Origin: Phorcus lineatus
Lineage: Eukaryota > Mollusca > Gastropoda > Trochida > Trochidae
Assembly (NCBI GenBank): GCA_921293015.1
Contig: OV121091.1
Span: 41,297,932 to 41,361,931, forward strand
Direction: 5' to 3'
DNA length: 64,000 nt
The position numbers were made by a program, and so were the translations under genes. Of this stretch, positions 16,209 through 55,679 are shown in pieces. Below the pieces are notes generated by a model, which had not been told where the DNA came from, ran no database searches, and saw only the letters and a list, made by a program, of their open reading frames with translations. Position 1 is the first letter of the stretch, and every line of letters starts with the position of its first letter.

Positions 16209-16421
16209 GGGGAGACCGGGGCAGTTTAGGACATGGGTTAGATGGGGACACTATAGATATCCATTAATTCCAAAGAAGGTGAAGGAAACTGTCAATATCA
16301 CATACAGTTACATCATACACCATGTGGCAAATTATGCTGGTGGTTGAAAATGTGGTGTAATTCAATCACAGGAAAGTAATATTTGAATTTCTCTGGTTGG
16401 AATACATTTGTTAAAGAGGTG

Positions 16422-16716
16422 TTGCTTCTGCTCGACAACAACCAGAGCCATGTATCCCATTGAAGCCAAAAACTACAGCCGCACAGAATGTGTACAGTCC
16501 ATAGGTGAAATTCTACATTCAGGACAAAGATGCTTTACTTCAGGGGTTACAATGCCAATCTTTTATGTCAAAGAATTACTGGGAACATCATATCCAGGAC
16601 ATTTACGAATCAGGTCATTTCTTTAAATATAATGACATATATACCCACTGGACCGAAATGTGTTCGGTGAAGAGGAACTTCTGCCTCCTTTTCTTGCAGA
16701 TAGACCAGAAACATCT
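16422..16716 (+). pseudogene. Pogo/Tigger-type transposase remnant
   Basis: Three conserved blocks can be read in order. LLLLDNNQSHVSH at 16422-16460 resembles the block around the second catalytic Asp of DDE_1 transposases, and is followed by TGA. A second block at 16540-16596 (TMPIFYVKELLGTSYP) matches the family's NPG-TISIYD-ELLG-AYP region. A third at 16639-16716 (IYPLDRNVFGEEELLPPF, then ADRPE) matches the conserved C-terminus. The second and third share a frame but are split by stops (TAA, TAA, TGA at 16621-16635), and the first is in another frame. The helix-turn-helix and first Asp are gone. Confidence 0.8.
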
Positions 16717-17304
16717 GCAATTTGGACCTCGTCCTGCAACCACCCAAGATGTCCCACACATAGGACCACCAGAAGCCATCAAGATGCTCCCATAGGACCA
16801 CCAGAAGCATGTACCCAAGATGCACACACAGGACCACCAGAAGCATGTACCAAAGATGCACACACAGGGCCACCAGAAGCATGTACCAAAGATGCGCACA
16901 TAGGACCACCAGAAGCATGTACCAAAGATGCGCACACAGGACCACCAGAAGCATGTACCCAAGATGCACACACAGGACCACCAGAAGCATGTACCAAAGA
17001 TGAGCACATAGGACCACCAGAAGCATGTACCAAAGATGCGCACATAGGACCATCAGAAGCATGTACCAAAGATGCGCACATAGGACCACCAGAGGCATGT
17101 ACCAAAGATGCGCACATAGGACCACCAGAGGCATGTACCAAAGATGCGCACATAGGACCACCAGAAGCATGTACCAAAGATGCGCACATAGGACCACAAG
17201 ATACAAGCACCCAAGATGGACACATGAAACCTCCAGCAAAGAACGATGATAAAACTTTCTCGATACTCCAACAAGCAATATTCCACTTTTTATGTCACTG
17301 TTAA
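16660..17304 (+). CDS. Transposase-tail plus repeat open frame, function unknown
   Basis: An open frame of about 214 codons runs from the conserved transposase C-terminus through the twelve GPPEACTKDAHI units to a stop at 17302-17304. It begins with GTG, not ATG, so it is probably the 3' part of an older reading frame and not an independent gene. The end (KPPAKNDDKTFSILQQAIF...) has no PHD finger, unlike the related element at 50.5 kb. Translation is doubtful. Confidence 0.35.
   Translation: MFGEEELLPPFLADRPETSAIWTSSCNHPRCPTHRTTRSHQDAPIGPPEACTQDAHTGPPEACTKDAHTGPPEACTKDAHIGPPEACTKDAHTGPPEACTQDAHTGPPEACTKDEHIGPPEACTKDAHIGPSEACTKDAHIGPPEACTKDAHIGPPEACTKDAHIGPPEACTKDAHIGPQDTSTQDGHMKPPAKNDDKTFSILQQAIFHFLCHC
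16795..17226 (+). repeat. 36-bp coding-type tandem repeat, about 12 copies
   Basis: The unit encodes GPPEACTKDAHI, with T/I at the last position and occasional Q, S or E changes. Twelve copies follow the transposase C-terminus in frame. Because the unit is a multiple of three, other frames on both strands are open too, giving several spurious long frames. Changes between units are mostly single bases, so the array expanded recently relative to the decay of the transposase. Confidence 0.9.
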
Positions 17305-17478
17305 GATAATAATTGAAATTTTTGTATCTTTGATAATTATTTCGACAGATATTTATATCGTCCAAATGTGAGACAGTTTGGGACAGAATGTTTTAGATTA
17401 TTGGTTCTTATCTATACTAAATAGATTAAGAACAAACAAGAAAATAATGTTTTTGTCCCAATGTGCCCCGGTCTCCCC

Positions 17479-48300: not shown

Positions 48301-51300
48301 CTTTCTCAAAGTTCATTTTCCCATATCTTTGCACCAATCTAATATATAGATATATGAAGTAAATGACAAGTGTCGGTTAATCTGGCGTAACAATCCTTGG
48401 GTGAATAACAGATATTAGATGTTTAAACAGTACGTTAGTCAATTAAAGGGGCACAGAGTATGTTGTTGGAGTCATATATGTCAAACTTCATAAATGGTGT
48501 TATTTTATCGAGTAGTACTGGTTGTTTAAAAAACGGACAGTGAATCAAACGTAATTTCGGAAATGTACTTACAGCATACATAGAGACAAACATTGATTGA
48601 TAGTGTGAAGTAGGTCAATTTACTAATATACACGATAATTGGACACTTAACTCAATCCTTAGTTATTTTGGCTATTACTAAAGCCACATTAAAAATCATG
48701 AAACATACTATGTGTCACTTTAAGAAAGATCTGAACATTACGAAAAATACAAGTTCATATGTATTTATATTTTAAGAGATTTTGTTGGATTGTTGACCTT
48801 CAATTCGTCCTTGACCTCTTCGCTCCTGAGGTTAAGGTCTGGTTGAGTAGACCTGAAGGTGTGAAGATAATATTCTCGGCGTGTCTCGTCCCATTTCCAT
48901 GCTGAACCATTGTACACGGAGAGCTGAAACCAAAACAGACATATTTTATGAAAGCTTCATTTAACTACAACTTCAGGAGAAATCGGGGCTCATCAACACC
49001 AACCAACGGAATCAAAATAATATCTGATATATTAACTACAACATCAGGATAAATCAGGAGAAGTCAAAACCAGTCATAGAATAAAAATCTTATCGGATAT
49101 CAAAATATCAAAACATGAAACACATTTCAAATAAGCGCTTCTTTGTGAATCAAATTTGAAAAAAATATTTAAAATGTCAACAACAAAAACAAGTTCAGAC
49201 CTTTTAATCACATGAGATGTATAAATGGTTTCATTGCACACGTTCCATTTTTAAAAATCAACATAAAAGTGATTTACATTCCACATAAAGATCCAGTTAA
49301 GGCAGAACGTTAATGAATCTTAAAAAGAGAACAATTCAAGGATTATGTGACTTTCCTACCCAGTTATTAGGAGGATTCCGACCGCTAGTTCCCTCGTTCC
49401 ACACGTAATAGTTCTTTTTGGAACTGTTCCCCTTGCTGTCGCCGAACCATTTGTGCTGGTCACTAGTCAGATTCGGGACAAAGTCAAGGATTAACTTCAT
49501 ACCTAGGATAAAAAAATTACACGTAATGTGATTCATGTCAAAAACTATTATAAAAACAAATATGTCAAAAAACATTTACGAAATAACTGAATAATACAAT
49601 ACAGGTATTGATCCACTGCTAAAAAAAACAAACTATTTTGTCGTTTATTCCCCAAAATGAGACGAGGTTAATACAAATTTGCAGGTCTATGATACCAGTG
49701 TGAATTTATCTGTAAACCGATGCAAGTCGTAGTAGCAGCTGCAGTTACATTTTTAAACTGTCTAATCCTAAATGGTCCTCCTTGCTCTAGAGGGTTCCCG
49801 ATGCAGTGACAAGACAGTTAAGGGGAGATAACTCTAATGTCCCTGTGTTCTTGAGAGTATCTGAGCCTCAATGAACCCTATCTATTGTCGTCCATATTAC
49901 CACACTGTGGCAGAGCGTTCAATCACAAATTTGATATTACTATTTACACTATCATGTGCCCAAAGGCACCTGACTCTGTATATACATGTAATTTAAGTAT
50001 TCACTACTAGCTAAATAACGTAAACATATATAGCTACATGTATATATACTTACATGACATTTTACATTCAGAGTCTGGCGCCTGTGCATGTACCACTATT
50101 TCACGAGATTATTGGGTGGTATTGCTCAAACGATTACAGACTTGAAAACCCTTTAAATTATCAGGATGCCTAGTTCTTTGTTTTAAGTAACACGTTGGGT
50201 GTTCATGTACCAAAAGAATAAATCCTACCACACACGACAGTGTACGAAATTATAAATAAGTGCTGTTTACAAACCCAGCGCATGCGTGCTGTTGACAAGC
50301 CGGCGGAAGTCATCCATTATGCCGTACACGGAGTCGACAGCCTTATGGTCGATGATGTCGAAGTCGTTCTCGGGGTTGGACTTGGTCTGGTAGATGGGTG
50401 AGAGGGAGATGGTCTCCACCCCGAGAGTAGACAGGTAGTCCAGCCGATCAGATATACCTGCAATTAAACGCCACAGGTTATGATCAGTCTCACCTTCGCT
50501 TTGCTCTGTTTGATGTTTTTATAAGGTAGGGAGACCGGGGCAGGTTCGGCCCCGGGGCACGTTCATCCTTCCCCCATAACTTTTTTTAGGTGGTCTGCTT
50601 AACTTGAATTGGTGATTTCAAAGAAACCACGTGACCTAACTCTCATACAGATAACAAAATGGCGGCTGTAACACATGCCTTTTACATTCTGTGAAAGAAA
50701 AACCGTATTTCACCAAGGTGAGTAAAATTTTCATCTGCAATTCAGTTTCTTTTTGCAAAACAGTACTTGTATTTACGCATTTGTTCCTCATGTTGTGTCA
50801 AGGAACATAACAAGGTCTGTAAGTAATGATTGTGTAATTTGGGTATGGTGGCTCTCGATTATCGCAAACCTAACATAATGAGGAAATATTGGTCTGGGGC
50901 ACGTTTGGCTATTAATGACGGGGCACGTTTGGCCAGGGGGGATGAACCTACCCCGAATGCGGGGTAGGTTCATCCCCCCTGGATGAATGTGCCCCACACA
51001 CTTTGCTAGACAGTAATTGTTTTGTGATATATTAACTGGAGTGCAATAGTTACTGTTCAATGACAGAAAATATAAACTAACATTGTATACTTTCAGAGCA
51101 CACCAAAATGGTCCGCACATATGTCCGAAAAACTGACCGATTTGGGAATATGCACCCTGATCTTTCTGTGTTTGGTCCTTTGAAGAAGAAGATTTCTCAA
51201 TCTCAAGCCAACTGGCTACGCAACCATCCTGGAAGGCCAATCTCAATCTATGATACCGCTTCCATCTTACATGAACCATGGCAGGCTGCCCTGACGATGA

Positions 51301-54300
51301 GAAATATCTGTAGTGGCTTTGCAAAAGCTGGAATATTCCCCTTTCAGAATGAAATCTTCTCAGACGACGATTTTATCGCATCCAGTGTTACGGATCGTCC
51401 CCTTCCCGACTCCACTGAATCAGCAAGTACAATTCGTCAAATGGATACCCCTGAAGCTACTGGGGACAAAGATCATCGAAGTACTAGCAATGATGTTCTA
51501 GTTCGCTACATGAACGATCGACAGATGTCAGTCATACCAGTCCGAGGTGACGGACATTGCTTACTCTATTCAGTAAGCACAGCACTTCAAGTTTCCGGAT
51601 GTGGAATCTTTACACCTGAAGACATTGGCAAGCGTCTGGTACAAGAAGTTGAAGATCACAGTGACTTCTATGCAGAATTTTCTTTGACCGAGGACCCGGA
51701 TGTATCATCAGCTGTTCGAAGATTTTTAGCAGACAGTGATTATGACAACAACATGGGAGATATGATTCTAAACGCATTGTGCAATGCATTGCAAATGAAG
51801 GCAATTGTAGTGCACTGTTTGAATGGAGTTGTCTACGAGGTGTTTCAAGTCCCAGGAAGACCAGGCATTGGCATTGAGCATACCATCTACCTAACGCTGA
51901 ATGGCACAGGCGTGGCAGCCCATTACAGTGCTGTCTTCTGTCAATCAACTAACGTAGCCAGTGATTCAACCACTACAACATCCACCACGTTTGACAAGTC
52001 ATCAGACAATGGATTTTCACCAGAAAGTGTAAGTCCTCACCCTAAAGCTCCCCAACGCAAGGTGGCTGGTGGCAGGAAACGCAGGAAGACGTGCATCCTT
52101 ACCGATACACCAGAGAAGGAAGCTCTAAGGGTTGAACAGGAGAATAGACAAGCACGCCAGAATGCCAAAGCGAGAAAGAGCCTAGGATCTACACTGCCGA
52201 AGAAGACAAGCAAGCCTGTGGAAAAAAAGAAACGTTGCACTTCAAAACGAAACCAATCGACCGAATCAGAGATATGCTTAGTTTGTCAGGGAACGTGGTC
52301 CAATAGCAGGCCCCGTGAGACGTGGATCCAGTGCAGTATCTGCAAATATTGGGCTCATGAGGATTGTGCTTATTTACTTGAAATGTTGCATTATACTTGT
52401 GGCAATTGTTGCAAATCATCTAAAACTTCTACAACATCAAATACCTGCCCGTCTATGGCATCAGCTGAACCAAAAATGCCACCTCAAGATGTTCCTGATG
52501 TTCCTACATGTACACCAGCACGAAGTGCTCCTGATGCTTCCCCTACTCCACCACGAAAGGCTTCTGGTGCTTCTACTCCACCACGAAATGCTCCTGATGC
52601 TTCTACTCAACCACGGAAGGCTCCTGATGCTTCCGCTACTCCACCGCGAAGTGCTCCTGATGCTTCCACTACTCCACCACGAAATGCTCCTGATGCTTCT
52701 ACTCCATCACGGAGTGCTCCTGATGCTTCCCCTACTCAACCACGAAAGGCTCCTGATGCTTCTACTCCACCACGGAAGGCTCCTGATGCTTCCTCTACTC
52801 CACCACGGAAGGCTCCTGATGCTTCCCCTACTCCACCACGAAAGGCTCCTGATGCTTCTACTCAACCACGAAAGGCTCCTGATGCTTCTACTCCACCACG
52901 GAAGACTCCTGATGCTTCCTCTACTCCACCACGAAAGGTTCCTGATGCTTCTACTCCACCACGAAGTGCTCCTGATGCTTCTACTCCACCACGGAAGACT
53001 CCTGATGCTTCCGCTACTCCACCGCGAAGTGCTCCTGATGCTTCCACTACTCCACCACGAAATGCTCCTGATGCTTCTACTCCATCACGGAGTGCTCCTG
53101 ATGCTTCCCCTACTCAACCACGAAAGGCTCCTGATGCTTCTACTCCACCACGGAAGGCTCCTGATTCTTCCTCTACTCCACCACGGAAGGCTCCTGATGC
53201 TTCCCCTACTCCACCACGAAAGGCTCCTGATGCTTCTACTCAACCACGAAAGGCTCCTGATGCTTCTACTCCACCACGGAAGACTCCTGATGCTTCCTCT
53301 ACTCCACCACGAAAGGCTCCTGATGCTTCTACTCCACCACGAAGTGCTCCTGATGCTTCTACTCCACCACGGAAGACTCCTGATGCTTCCTCTACTCCAC
53401 CACGAAAGGCTCCTGATGCTTCTACTCCACCACGAAGTGCTCCTGATGCTTCCCCTACTCCACCACGGAAGGTTCATCGTGCCTCTACCTCATCACGGCA
53501 AAGGAGTAGACGAAGGAAGTCAACCAAGAAAACCAGAATAACACAGGTGATCAATTCTGGAGATGAGACCAACTGTTTAGTTTGCGGAGAATCTTGGTGT
53601 GATAGCAGACCTAACGAAACCTGGGTTCAATGCAGCATGTGTGCCTTGTGGTCCCATGAAGAATGTGCTGGGACACAAGGCATGTTAGGATACACTTGTG
53701 ACAACTGTGATTGACGTTAATTGTGAACATTATTCACATCCCTCTTGATTGTTGGCTGATGTTTCTGCCATTTTGGTTTGACGTGTTTGTACTTCAAAGG
53801 ATATAATTTCCGCTATTTCGTTTTCCATGAAATAGATTGTTTAATGGCCAAAATGTTTAATTATCTTGTTAAAAGTATGTTGCATTCAATTATCATACTT
53901 GTTACAGTTTGAATAAAACACAAAATATCCAACACTTTTTCCTAAATCTCTTTTTCATTCCAGGGGCACGTTCGGCCATGCACTTCGATTTTTTTAGAAC
54001 AATGTCACCAGATAAATACTGAATCTACATCATCATAAAATATATCTTTGTAAAGCAATGTTATGTCGCCTTTTTCGCAAACATGTAACTTTTAATATAT
54101 TTATTGAGAATATATTTCTTGTCCCTTCCTTCAATTGGGGTTGGCCGAACGTGCCCCGATTGGTCCCAAGCATGGCCGAACCTGCCCCAGGGGGTAGCCG
54201 AACCTGCCCCGAGGCGGGGTTAGTTCGGCTTTCCAACTCGTTCTATTAAAAACACAGTTGTGGGAAAAGATATCATATTAGGCACTCTGGACAATTACTA

Positions 54301-55673
54301 CAAGAAAGCCAAGTTGTCGTTCTATATCTGTACAAACACGCGCAAGGATATGTCATTAAACGAACTCTCTAGCTTAATTTTAGTGAAAAGGGGACGAACC
54401 TGCCCCGGTCTCCCCGTTGAGTTGGTCGTTGCAATGGTAATCCTGCTCAGTACGAGAGGCGTCCCGAACCCTTCACTTGTATATAATTTATTCATATGCT
54501 CTTCTTTGGTAAAACGTATTCATGTAAATATTTTCCCGAAATCTTCAGCAACTTCCTATGCTTTTTCAATGTATTAAATTGCGGAATGATAAAAAGTCTG
54601 TAGTCTGTACACCCCATATCATATTGAAATGAATGCATATCATCGAAAGATTATTTTAAGCCTCGAGTCGAATTTCCTGAAAGAGTTTTACTTATTGAAG
54701 CTATGAGTTCAACATTTTTCGATATTGTTGTTAATTAAGTCCACTGCGAGTCATAAGATCAAGAATATTACATAACAATAACACGATAAAGCTATAAACA
54801 CAAACAAAATATTTTCAATTCACAATTGTGTTCGAGTTCCTTCTTCGGTGTGGTTCAGCATAAGAATTGAACTCAAGTTGGTTGCAAGATTGACCTAGTC
54901 TAAAACCTCAGATAACAGTGTTAACAAGATTTAACAAGTGTTAACTTTAGATAACAGCGTTTGGTTTTAAGATTCACCTAGTCTATAACCTCATATAACA
55001 GTGTTAACAAGTGTTAACTTTAGATAACTGCGTTTGGTTGCAAGGTTCACCTAGTCTATAACCTCAGATAACAGTGTTAACGAGTGTTAACTTTAGATAA
55101 CAGCGTTTGGTTTCAAGGTTCACCTAGTCAAGAACTTTTGATAACAGCGTTTAGTTGCGAAATTTACCTAGTTAACTTTAGATAACAGTGGGTCTTTTTA
55201 ACAAACTTTACACAAAGACGTCTTTAGTTACAAGGCTCACCTTTAAGGTCCCCTTTTCCATCGGAATCGCTGTCCTGGAAGCTGGGCACGTATATCCTGT
55301 AGACGACAGTCTTCTGCCACCACTCCTGTTTGCGAGGGTCCCGACACCGCGGGTAGATGAGGACCAGCGCAACCACGGTGATGATGAGAGCCAGCCAACC
55401 CAGCAGGATAATAGACATACACACGTAACGGAGACGTCGCCATAACGGCTTGGAAGAATGGCGGAGAAGGTCTTCTTTGCCCATACCCCGGTAGGGGGCG
55501 TCTGAGTACGGTCTGTCATACAGGCCGCCATCTTGAGTCTTGAGCTTCACCCCACCGTCTCCGTCGTTGTTGTAACCTGCGTTGGTATATCCTTGCGCCT
55601 CGTCACGTTTGCGCATGCCCGTATCGCCGTCAAGCGGCTTGTGGGATACGATGTATACCCCACTTCGATCCAT
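45180..55673 (-). CDS. SLC3A1: SLC3A1 (rBAT)-like amino-acid transporter heavy chain
   Basis: Ten coding exons (55241-55673, 50275-50457, 49360-49502, 48798-48923, 48160-48279, 47605-47720, 47005-47200, 46240-46518, 45717-45868, 45180-45390) join in frame to 652 residues; human SLC3A1 has 685. All junctions are GT-AG. Residues 1-83 are cytoplasmic, about 84-107 form one transmembrane helix (type II), and Cys110 lies just outside it, where rBAT bonds its light subunit by disulfide. A GH13-like ectodomain follows. The B-domain part, including [14 protein letters not shown], favours SLC3A1 over SLC3A2, which lacks that domain. The GH13 nucleophile position in GF-x-x-D reads GFYIR, so Arg312 replaces Asp: a pseudoenzyme. 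Several NXS/T sites fit a glycoprotein. By family knowledge it carries a b0,+-type transporter to the plasma membrane. Introns hold a pogo-OTU element (intron 1) and a MITE (intron 4). Confidence 0.93.
45717..45868 (-). CDS. SLC3A1: SLC3A1-like exon 9
   Basis: [20 protein letters not shown], then [13 protein letters not shown], the helix leading into the C-terminal beta domain. Ends in a split Gly codon (GG/G) with donor GTATGT. Confidence 0.9.
46240..46518 (-). CDS. SLC3A1: SLC3A1-like exon 8
   Basis: Ninety-three codons. [14 protein letters not shown] replaces the usual HD-containing motif. [18 protein letters not shown] and [13 protein letters not shown] are family hallmarks. Phase 0 at both ends; acceptor TATCGCAG, donor GAG/GTAGGT. 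Confidence 0.93.
47005..47200 (-). CDS. SLC3A1: SLC3A1-like exon 7
   Basis: Encodes [19 protein letters not shown] through to SGRWANWM, which matches the strongly conserved W-NWM end of this block in rBAT. The position of the GH13 acid/base Glu lacks an obvious Glu (ADIHGD). Phase 2 in, phase 0 out, donor ATG/GTGCGT. Confidence 0.92.
47605..47720 (-). CDS. SLC3A1: SLC3A1-like exon 6
   Basis: Starts [20 protein letters not shown] and ends in a split Arg codon (AG/A). It covers the helical part between the nucleophile and acid/base regions. Acceptor ATTACAG, donor ACAG/GTAAAA. Confidence 0.9.
48160..48279 (-). CDS. SLC3A1: SLC3A1-like exon 5, altered catalytic motif
   Basis: Forty codons, [20 protein letters not shown] and on. 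The segment aligns with the GH13 nucleophile motif G-F-R-x-D, here G-F-Y-I-R, so the acid is replaced by Arg312. Acceptor TTTTCAG, donor CCA/GTGAGT. Confidence 0.92.
48442..48724. mobile_element. MITE family A, copy 2 (in SLC3A1-like intron 4)
   Basis: The ends TTAAAGGGGCACAGAGTATG and CTATGTGTCACTTTAAG are imperfect inverted repeats. The left part (GTCATATATGTCAAACTT) matches the element at 3414-3856. It lies wholly inside the intron between exons 4 and 5. Confidence 0.65.
48798..48923 (-). CDS. SLC3A1: SLC3A1-like exon 4
   Basis: Forty-two codons, phase 0 at both ends. They read [20 protein letters not shown], then [17 protein letters not shown], the QPDLN signature of this family. Too split from other open frames to be found as a long ORF. 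Confidence 0.92.
49360..49502 (-). CDS. SLC3A1: SLC3A1-like exon 3
   Basis: Starts [11 protein letters not shown], the conserved region I (with Asn in place of the usual NH pair's context), and runs through [20 protein letters not shown] into PPNNW. Forty-eight codons with a phase-0 end at donor TGG/GTAGGA. Confidence 0.92.
50275..50457 (-). CDS. SLC3A1: SLC3A1-like exon 2
   Basis: Encodes [20 protein letters not shown], then [15 protein letters not shown] and on to [14 protein letters not shown], the first part of the GH13-type barrel. The acceptor is TTAATTGCAG. The pogo-OTU transposon starts only 71 bases from it. The donor G/GTTTGT is weak. Phases are 1 in and 1 out. Confidence 0.92.
50600..50717 (+). 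other. Likely 5' untranslated exon of the OTU-PHD gene
   Basis: The segment ends in a consensus donor CCAAG/GTGAGT at 50718. The matching acceptor ACTTTCAG ends at 51096, 11 bases before the ATG, with a branch-like CTAAC at 51077-51081. A tiny frame from the ATG near 50659 has 11 codons. The transcription start is not marked and the left limit is a guess. Confidence 0.55.
50933..50982. repeat. Perfect 23-bp-arm palindrome in the transposon
   Basis: Arms 50933-50955 and 50960-50982 are exact inverted copies with a 4-base loop. Imperfect pairing extends outward to GGGGCAC/GTGCCCC. The arms contain the subterminal motif of the element in head-to-head form. It lies in the intron before the OTU-PHD coding exon. 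Confidence 0.9.
51108..53714 (+). CDS. Chimeric transposase-tail / OTU protease / twin PHD-finger protein
   Basis: An 868-residue open frame begins at ATG 51108. Residues 1-14 ([14 protein letters not shown]) match the usual N-terminus of pogo-like transposases. Residues 17-100 match the C-terminal end of the DDE_1 transposase ([34 protein letters not shown]). The helix-turn-helix and DDE core between them are absent. Residues about 140-277 are an OTU cysteine protease (deubiquitinase family): GDGHCLLYS gives Asp148 and Cys151, and AHYSAVF gives His272. A basic stretch GGRKRRKT may be a nuclear signal. PHD fingers lie at about 387-435 and 820-868. Between them about 320 residues are repeats of the [10 protein letters not shown] type. 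Nuclear deubiquitinase or chromatin-reader activity is inference. Confidence 0.9.
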   Translation: MVRTYVRKTDRFGNMHPDLSVFGPLKKKISQSQANWLRNHPGRPISIYDTASILHEPWQAALTMRNICSGFAKAGIFPFQNEIFSDDDFIASSVTDRPLPDSTESASTIRQMDTPEATGDKDHRSTSNDVLVRYMNDRQMSVIPVRGDGHCLLYSVSTALQVSGCGIFTPEDIGKRLVQEVEDHSDFYAEFSLTEDPDVSSAVRRFLADSDYDNNMGDMILNALCNALQMKAIVVHCLNGVVYEVFQVPGRPGIGIEHTIYLTLNGTGVAAHYSAVFCQSTNVASDSTTTTSTTFDKSSDNGFSPESVSPHPKAPQRKVAGGRKRRKTCILTDTPEKEALRVEQENRQARQNAKARKSLGSTLPKKTSKPVEKKKRCTSKRNQSTESEICLVCQGTWSNSRPRETWIQCSICKYWAHEDCAYLLEMLHYTCGNCCKSSKTSTTSNTCPSMASAEPKMPPQDVPDVPTCTPARSAPDASPTPPRKASGASTPPRNAPDASTQPRKAPDASATPPRSAPDASTTPPRNAPDASTPSRSAPDASPTQPRKAPDASTPPRKAPDASSTPPRKAPDASPTPPRKAPDASTQPRKAPDASTPPRKTPDASSTPPRKVPDASTPPRSAPDASTPPRKTPDASATPPRSAPDASTTPPRNAPDASTPSRSAPDASPTQPRKAPDASTPPRKAPDSSSTPPRKAPDASPTPPRKAPDASTQPRKAPDASTPPRKTPDASSTPPRKAPDASTPPRSAPDASTPPRKTPDASSTPPRKAPDASTPPRSAPDASPTPPRKVHRASTSSRQRSRRRKSTKKTRITQVINSGDETNCLVCGESWCDSRPNETWVQCSMCALWSHEECAGTQGMLGYTCDNCD
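52515..53475 (+). repeat. 30/33-bp coding repeats with 378-bp higher-order unit
   Basis: About 30 units encode variants of [11 protein letters not shown] block of 126 residues starting at 52631 recurs at 53009 with very few changes, showing a recent 378-bp duplication. A shorter third expansion follows (53290-53460). The array is in frame with the OTU-PHD protein. The long frames in other registers here are only by-products of the repeat. Confidence 0.92.
53912..53917 (+). terminator. Poly(A) signal of the OTU-PHD gene
   Basis: AATAAA lies 198 bases after the stop codon of the OTU-PHD frame and inside the transposon, so the transcript could end within the element. Confidence 0.55.
54886..55200. 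repeat. 73-bp minisatellite next to SLC3A1-like exon 1
   Basis: About four units with period 73 (TTCACCTAGTCTATAACC..., GTGTTAACTTTAGATAAC..., GCGTTTGGTT). On the minus strand each unit carries CTAG/GTGAAC-CTTG or a variant. This resembles the true exon 1 donor AAAG/GTGAGCCTTG and its downstream bases, so the array may have grown from that splice-site flank. Confidence 0.82.
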
Positions 55674-55679
55674 CTCGTC
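55241..55679 (-). CDS. SLC3A1: SLC3A1-like exon 1: cytoplasmic tail, TM helix, GH13 start
   Basis: The exon starts after the acceptor ATTGTAG (ending 55680), so an untranslated exon lies upstream. ATG is at 55673. It encodes a polar, Asp/Gly-rich tail, the membrane helix ([20 protein letters not shown]), Cys110, and the conserved [20 protein letters not shown] start of the ectodomain. The donor is AAAG/GTGAGC, leaving phase 1. Confidence 0.92.

Follow-up and report, generated by a model that had tools for sequence, protein, structure and literature searches.

A predicted OTU cysteine protease domain in a clade of pogo-superfamily transposons and its probable internal-deletion copy in Phorcus lineatus

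Transposases of the pogo superfamily of IS630-Tc1-mariner elements combine DNA-binding and DDE domains (Gao et al. 2020, PMC7386202). For Ginger1 transposons it was proposed that control of ubiquitin aids transposition, with a role in activating repair factors (Bao, Kapitonov and Jurka 2010, PMC2836005); for VTD proteases, whose transposon-borne domains are active, the proposal was that they prevent the degradation of proteins needed for transposition, the activity of transposon OTU domains being described there as not yet assayed (PMC9741609). We analysed 64,000 nucleotides of the gastropod Phorcus lineatus (contig OV121091.1, positions 41,297,932 to 41,361,931, forward strand), the whole of which we call the window and number from its first letter. 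An initial annotation had described one open frame in it as an OTU cysteine protease fused to a pogo transposase tail and two PHD fingers. We consider it probable, mainly as a statement of identity, that this open reading frame (ORF) belongs to a young DNA transposon of the pogo superfamily from which an internal segment has been deleted without loss of frame. The OTU is a native domain of the transposase clade because an intact copy in the same genome carries the whole architecture. The window locus is an ordinary internal-deletion copy, and the interest resides in the clade.

The genome was searched for copies (958 Mb, 74 contigs), with copy counts that are lower bounds as the best candidates were scored and common words skipped. 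The intact copy, L031, is 4,623 bp long (C25:16859753-16864375) and has the same ends as the window element with TA on both sides. It encodes a protein of 1,113 amino acids with the predicted order N-terminal helix-turn-helix (HTH), pogo DDE_1, OTU, conserved linker, PHD, repeat array, PHD. Its Pfam DDE_1 match has an E value of 2.9e-17, its HTH_psq match scores 17.4 bits against a cut-off of 20.4 that the relatives P0001 and P0012 exceed, and its OTU (18.1 bits) and PHD matches fall under their cut-offs. DDE_1 and DDE_3 matched the protein, and no integrase model did so at E up to 0.1. Residues D191, D300 and D336 occupy what we take to be the positions of the DDD triad.

Aligned to L031, the window copy is the same element minus 954 bp, a multiple of three, between residues 17 and 336, with the triplet GAT at 51159..51161 (plus strand) common to both breakpoints. 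By sequence comparison the deletion removed the HTH together with two of the three catalytic aspartates, leaving only the third of the triad; residue 336 of the intact protein is D18 of the window protein, presumably in the same role. Since it lacks the HTH and the catalytic core, the window copy cannot transpose by itself and would be movable in trans, if at all. The tail to which the OTU had been said to be fused is thus a pogo tail as described, and it is what the in-frame deletion left of a complete pogo transposase. No fusion event joined the two; the OTU belongs regularly to this pogo clade, whose relatives occur in other genomes. Window copy and L031 hardly differ: the OTU protein sequence is the same in both, and with the array excluded the coding region has two changes in 1,338 bp after the junction and one in 51 bp before it, to which are added one in 579 bp upstream and two in 701 bp downstream, a divergence of ~0.2% outside the array. 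The array itself differs in length between fixed landmarks, at 972 bp in the window copy, 753 bp in L031 and 372 bp in a further copy, L035.

The window ORF lies on the plus strand at 51108..53714, as do all its parts, and encodes 868 amino acids from the ATG at 51108 (877 codons from stop to stop). It is a real single open frame, as had been claimed: across 500 Markov-1 resamples of the element the longest stop-free frame was 224 codons, and although the tandem array accounts for part of the excess, the 476 codons preceding the array still exceed every resample. Residues 1-17 (51108..51158) are the transposase N-terminus, cut after ...GNMHP, and residues 18-105 (51159..51422) are the end of the pogo DDE_1 region. 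The proposed DDE_1 identity of the ORF start held in part, since Pfam DDE_1 gave no match to this remnant whereas 56 tblastn rows limited to residues 18-105 pair them with the closing stretch of the pogo DDE_1 region at 34-58% identity. The OTU domain follows (residues 123-283, 51474..51956), with the codons of D148 at 51549, C151 at 51558 and H272 at 51921, and then an FSPE...PHPKAP linker (52014..52142) common to pogo transposases without OTU. PHD finger 1 (residues 390-434, 52275..52409) is separated from PHD finger 2 (residues 823-867, 53574..53708) by the coding tandem array (52511..53467), which has periods of 63, 126 and 378 bp. Both fingers, as annotated, show what we take to be C4HC3 spacing.

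Several lines of evidence indicate that the window protein contains an OTU fold with the DGxC cysteine and the histidine, as predicted from its model. The residues named initially, D148-G-H-C151 and H272, are invariant in 17/17 aligned rows, and the active-site cysteine and histidine in 23/23 rows. The AlphaFold model matches yeast Otu2, OTUD1 and OTUD3 by fold, at 12-18% identity; a sequence search of the PDB gave nothing better than VCPIP1 (E 0.45). That the OTU might be an inactive passenger kept by chance is suggested by its faster evolution, with a mean identity over relatives of ~33% against 61% for the DDE part (the OTU/DDE correlation covers the 18 of 23 rows with a DDE span of at least 300), and by its absence from three relatives that lie inside the OTU group (P0059, P0060, P0069). 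The invariance of the catalytic pair despite this divergence makes chance retention quite improbable.

Protein relatives place the OTU in a clade. A query of residues 1-440 retrieved 52 proteins and a C-terminal query from P0011 retrieved 31, 26 of them new (P0053-P0078). A profile that combined the OTU columns of P0001-P0016 with those of the window protein was positive in 22/78 relatives, 16 of which had contributed to it and six of which (P0053-P0058) had not. Pfam DDE_1 is present in 21 of the 22, the exception being P0058, and one OTU bearer, P0002, comes from Patella caerulea. Full-length members align in the order N-terminal HTH region, DDE_1, OTU and FSPE... linker, some rows being partial, and P0017, P0018, P0020 and P0022 have the same order minus the OTU. 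A one-off chimera or gene-prediction artefact is ruled out by the intact genome copy together with the 22 OTU-bearing relatives.

When 82 DDE regions, nine of them frames from the P. lineatus genome including L031, are placed in a maximum-likelihood tree, the 20 OTU rows group with the three OTU-less rows mentioned above (P0052 was left out, as were P0005, P0013, P0058 and P0063, whose DDE span was under 200 profile positions or nil). Two OTU changes are needed on this tree, against ~18 in shuffles and four on a quick tree. Support for the OTU group is 54% by bootstrap, which had not settled, and 70% by the approximate likelihood ratio test (SH-aLRT); firm support (100/99) exists for a subgroup of ten OTU rows, to which the window family belongs. 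In P0059, from the barnacle Amphibalanus, a long repeat array stands between the DDE tail and the linker, at the place of the OTU in the others. One gain and one loss is the history favoured by this sequence tree, though not proven. A viral source was rejected, none of seven pattern matches in viral contigs being confirmed as a relative. As a separate observation, the pogo transposase P0049 from Littorina saxatilis ends in a Herpes_teg_N-like domain (21.1 bits against a cut-off of 25) that shows QC and DSH motifs. A query with this domain found at least five other proteins, all five with PF04843, and four of the five carry domains that we assume to be Helitron-associated. Judged from sequence, P0049 points to a second class of deubiquitinase that was gained independently, though the case is confined to a single protein cluster.

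The initial annotation was right to place an OTU with intact active-site residues inside a mobile element of pogo type that also encodes PHD fingers. The deleted copy spans 3,887 bp (50529..54415, plus strand), as defined by the repeats and by alignment to L031:2754-7376, between a left terminal inverted repeat at 50529..50553 (plus) and a right one at 54390..54415 (minus); complementarity between 50529-50553 and 54390-54414 is 96%. Near the two ends lie a left cluster of GGGGCASGTTYGGCC-like subterminal repeats (50537..50995, plus strand, with repeats at 50537, 50554, 50896 and 50920), which includes a palindrome of 36 bp at 50920-50995, and a right cluster (53963..54406, annotated on the minus strand, with one plus-strand repeat at 53963 and minus-strand repeats at 54143, 54174, 54196 and 54392). 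The whole window holds nine GGGGCASGTTYGGCC sites with at most two mismatches, every one within the element, where a mean of 0.05 is expected; the clusters are probable transposase-binding sites. On the plus strand, sequence alone predicts an intron in the 5' untranslated region (50718..51096, with consensus-like donor and acceptor, AAG/GTGAGT ... TTTCAG/AGCACACC) and a polyadenylation-type signal, AATAAA, at 53912..53917.

Other copies carrying the OTU were found, as the initial annotation had asked of the genome. The four two-ended copies besides that of the window (L031, L033, L035 and L048) have TA on both sides in every case. L035 (C25:7756801-7763313, minus strand, 6,513 bp) holds a full pogo-OTU frame that lacks a start codon. 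L048 (C9:30153246-30155816, 2,571 bp) has a deletion running into the array out of frame, and in L033 (C19:11478673-11481806, 3,134 bp) an in-frame deletion brings the final portion of the OTU directly behind the HTH region. A 91-bp fragment with the left end only begins at C19:45916033. Degraded OTU-bearing relatives with stops are L034 (C7) and L016 (C9), whose aligned C-terminal stretches have a single PHD and whose aligned parts do not show the coding array between PHD fingers; L015 (C1) holds an OTU fragment.

Internal-deletion products can act as regulators, as KP products repress the P element, and the window ORF could in the same way repress or titrate the full transposase: the copy retains the upstream region, the frame and the polyadenylation-type signal, and the frame is kept in two of the three internally deleted copies (the window and L033, not L048). 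Two in three is weak, however; very recent copies stay open without selection, and the window product has no HTH, so competition for the ends is not expected. Such a regulator is a poor prospect here, and L033, which retains the HTH, suits the role better. L033 has lost, in frame, its DDE core along with the greater part of the OTU, but its HTH region and its two PHD fingers remain, a layout that we liken, by assumed analogy, to a KP-type repressor.

Two side observations concern the family in this genome. In L035, a 550-residue piggyBac-type transposase (Pfam DDE_Tnp_1_7, 1.2e-64) begins upstream, at the pogo start codon, so that a piggyBac-type frame and then the pogo-OTU frame lie within a single pair of pogo ends with TA. 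A family of ~1.3-kb elements, L060-L064 (on C5, C16, C32, C41 and C37), 92-96% alike and with TA on both sides, shares with the OTU element 35-38 bp at the ends as well as 56 bp of subterminal sequence; L060, the one scanned, has a longest frame of 100 amino acids. These are probably non-autonomous partners of the OTU element.

A number of observations weigh against the identification of the element and its OTU or against the function proposed for it. The window OTU scores 20.6 bits with Pfam OTU against a gathering score of 23.3 (E 6.7e-4), and of seven OTU-bearing relatives scanned two pass (P0001 at 25.9 bits, P0006 at 24.7 bits), four are under the cut-off and P0002 has no OTU row. Although Pfam is under its cut-off, the OTU identity is accepted because the family profile, homologues, model and fold comparison support it. 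Both window PHD fingers (E 3.3e-4 and 1.8e-3) are also under the Pfam gathering score. The target duplication is not intact, with TA on the left (50527..50528) and GT on the right (54416-54417), and the left end is one terminal G shorter than in the other two-ended copies; a second event at the right flank may explain the lost TA. In L035 nine non-synonymous and three synonymous changes over 2,331 bp mean that no constraint is visible in that copy. As to function, a protective, K48-type role of the OTU is proposed solely by analogy with the VTD enzymes of transposons (PMC9741609).

In the transposition pathway that we propose, the HTH would bind the subterminal GGGGCASGTT sites, and cutting and pasting of the element at TA would fall to the DDE domain. 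The OTU could strip ubiquitin from the transposase itself and so let it escape proteasomal turnover, or could act on chromatin or repair proteins where the element leaves or inserts, and the PHD fingers, if they read histones, may hold the complex at either site. The likeliest role of the OTU would be to stabilise the transposase or other factors needed for transposition, a step to which, taken by itself, we would assign a chance a little short of even; local action on chromatin or repair would rank next. Alternatively, the OTU may be a self-processing protease that, rather than targeting ubiquitin, cuts the long transposase polypeptide and so separates OTU-PHD from the DDE portion. The single long multi-domain ORF and the linkers flanking the OTU, which are modelled poorly (predicted local distance difference test score, pLDDT, <50 at 91-124 and 282-309) are compatible with this, and polyprotein processing is frequent among viral cysteine deubiquitinases (PMC9741609). 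Self-processing is nonetheless hardly probable, as the nearest folds are all deubiquitinases and relatives that share the pogo and PHD parts yet lack the OTU do without such cleavage. The weakest alternative, a domesticated host OTU-PHD gene, has a long open frame, intact active-site residues and a transcription unit complete by sequence on its side, yet is extremely improbable with both inverted repeats still there and a divergence from a mobile copy so small that selection has had no time to show.

The window copy, if transcribed, would yield an OTU-PHD protein free of the transposase. A wider scenario, which we regard as rather unlikely, is that pogo elements gained ubiquitin proteases more than once (OTU, and VTD in P0049) and that loss of the transposase core would turn them into mobile genes without a transposase, whose free, chromatin-directed deubiquitinases would act in trans on the intact element or the host. 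The intact copy and its near-identical deleted counterpart allow the direct question of whether the OTU cysteine is needed for transposition.

Elsewhere in the window, the missing transposase core was sought with tblastn using the 78 relatives (E up to 1e-3) and not recovered: 192/197 rows fall in the window ORF and the remaining five are transposase-tail matches at 16543-16761. These lie in a second element (16209-17478) that has similar ends flanked on each side by TA and contains a pogo transposase tail with a broken frame, along with an array of repeat units of ~36 bp, by eye; it is related to L065 on C7 at 70-90% over pieces. The right flank of the OTU element (54416-54500) may be 28S rRNA-like, but Rfam matched no RNA family in 54300-54900 up to E 0.1. 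On the minus strand, 55224-55679 is an open stretch whose translation we take to resemble the beginning of a heavy chain of amino-acid transporters of the SLC3A1/rBAT type.

A search of the open-licence literature, with most subscription papers and Repbase outside its scope, found no OTU in a pogo element. Whole-word searches gave no occurrence of OTU, PHD or cysteine protease in the text of PMC7386202 and none of OTU, PHD, protease or ubiquitin in PMC8472432, PMC9976928 and PMC9219625, and the OTU of PMC6875170 is the operational taxonomic unit. The intact element resembles the pogo superfamily in its DDE_1 domain and putative HTH, DDD-type triad, inverted repeats and TA target duplication (PMC7386202). 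Ginger1 elements likewise bear a C-terminal OTU or Ulp1 on a DDE transposase, which differs in being of the Gypsy-integrase type and not pogo DDE_1, and the single Ginger1 listed with a PHD bears Ulp1, not OTU (PMC2836005). Helitrons and Helentrons with OTU or VTD are also mobile elements bearing cysteine deubiquitinases, but they use a rolling-circle RepHel and have no DDE transposase (PMC9741609), and the host enzymes OTUD1, OTUD3 and yeast Otu2 have no transposase part. The copies described here and their relatives in other genomes suggest that such mobile DNA manipulates the host ubiquitin system. OTU domains in mobile elements were already known from Ginger1 and Helitrons, and the pogo clade with an OTU adds a third and distinct kind of transposase with a putative deubiquitinase, which argues that DNA transposons of animals generally need to escape or exploit the ubiquitin control of their hosts.

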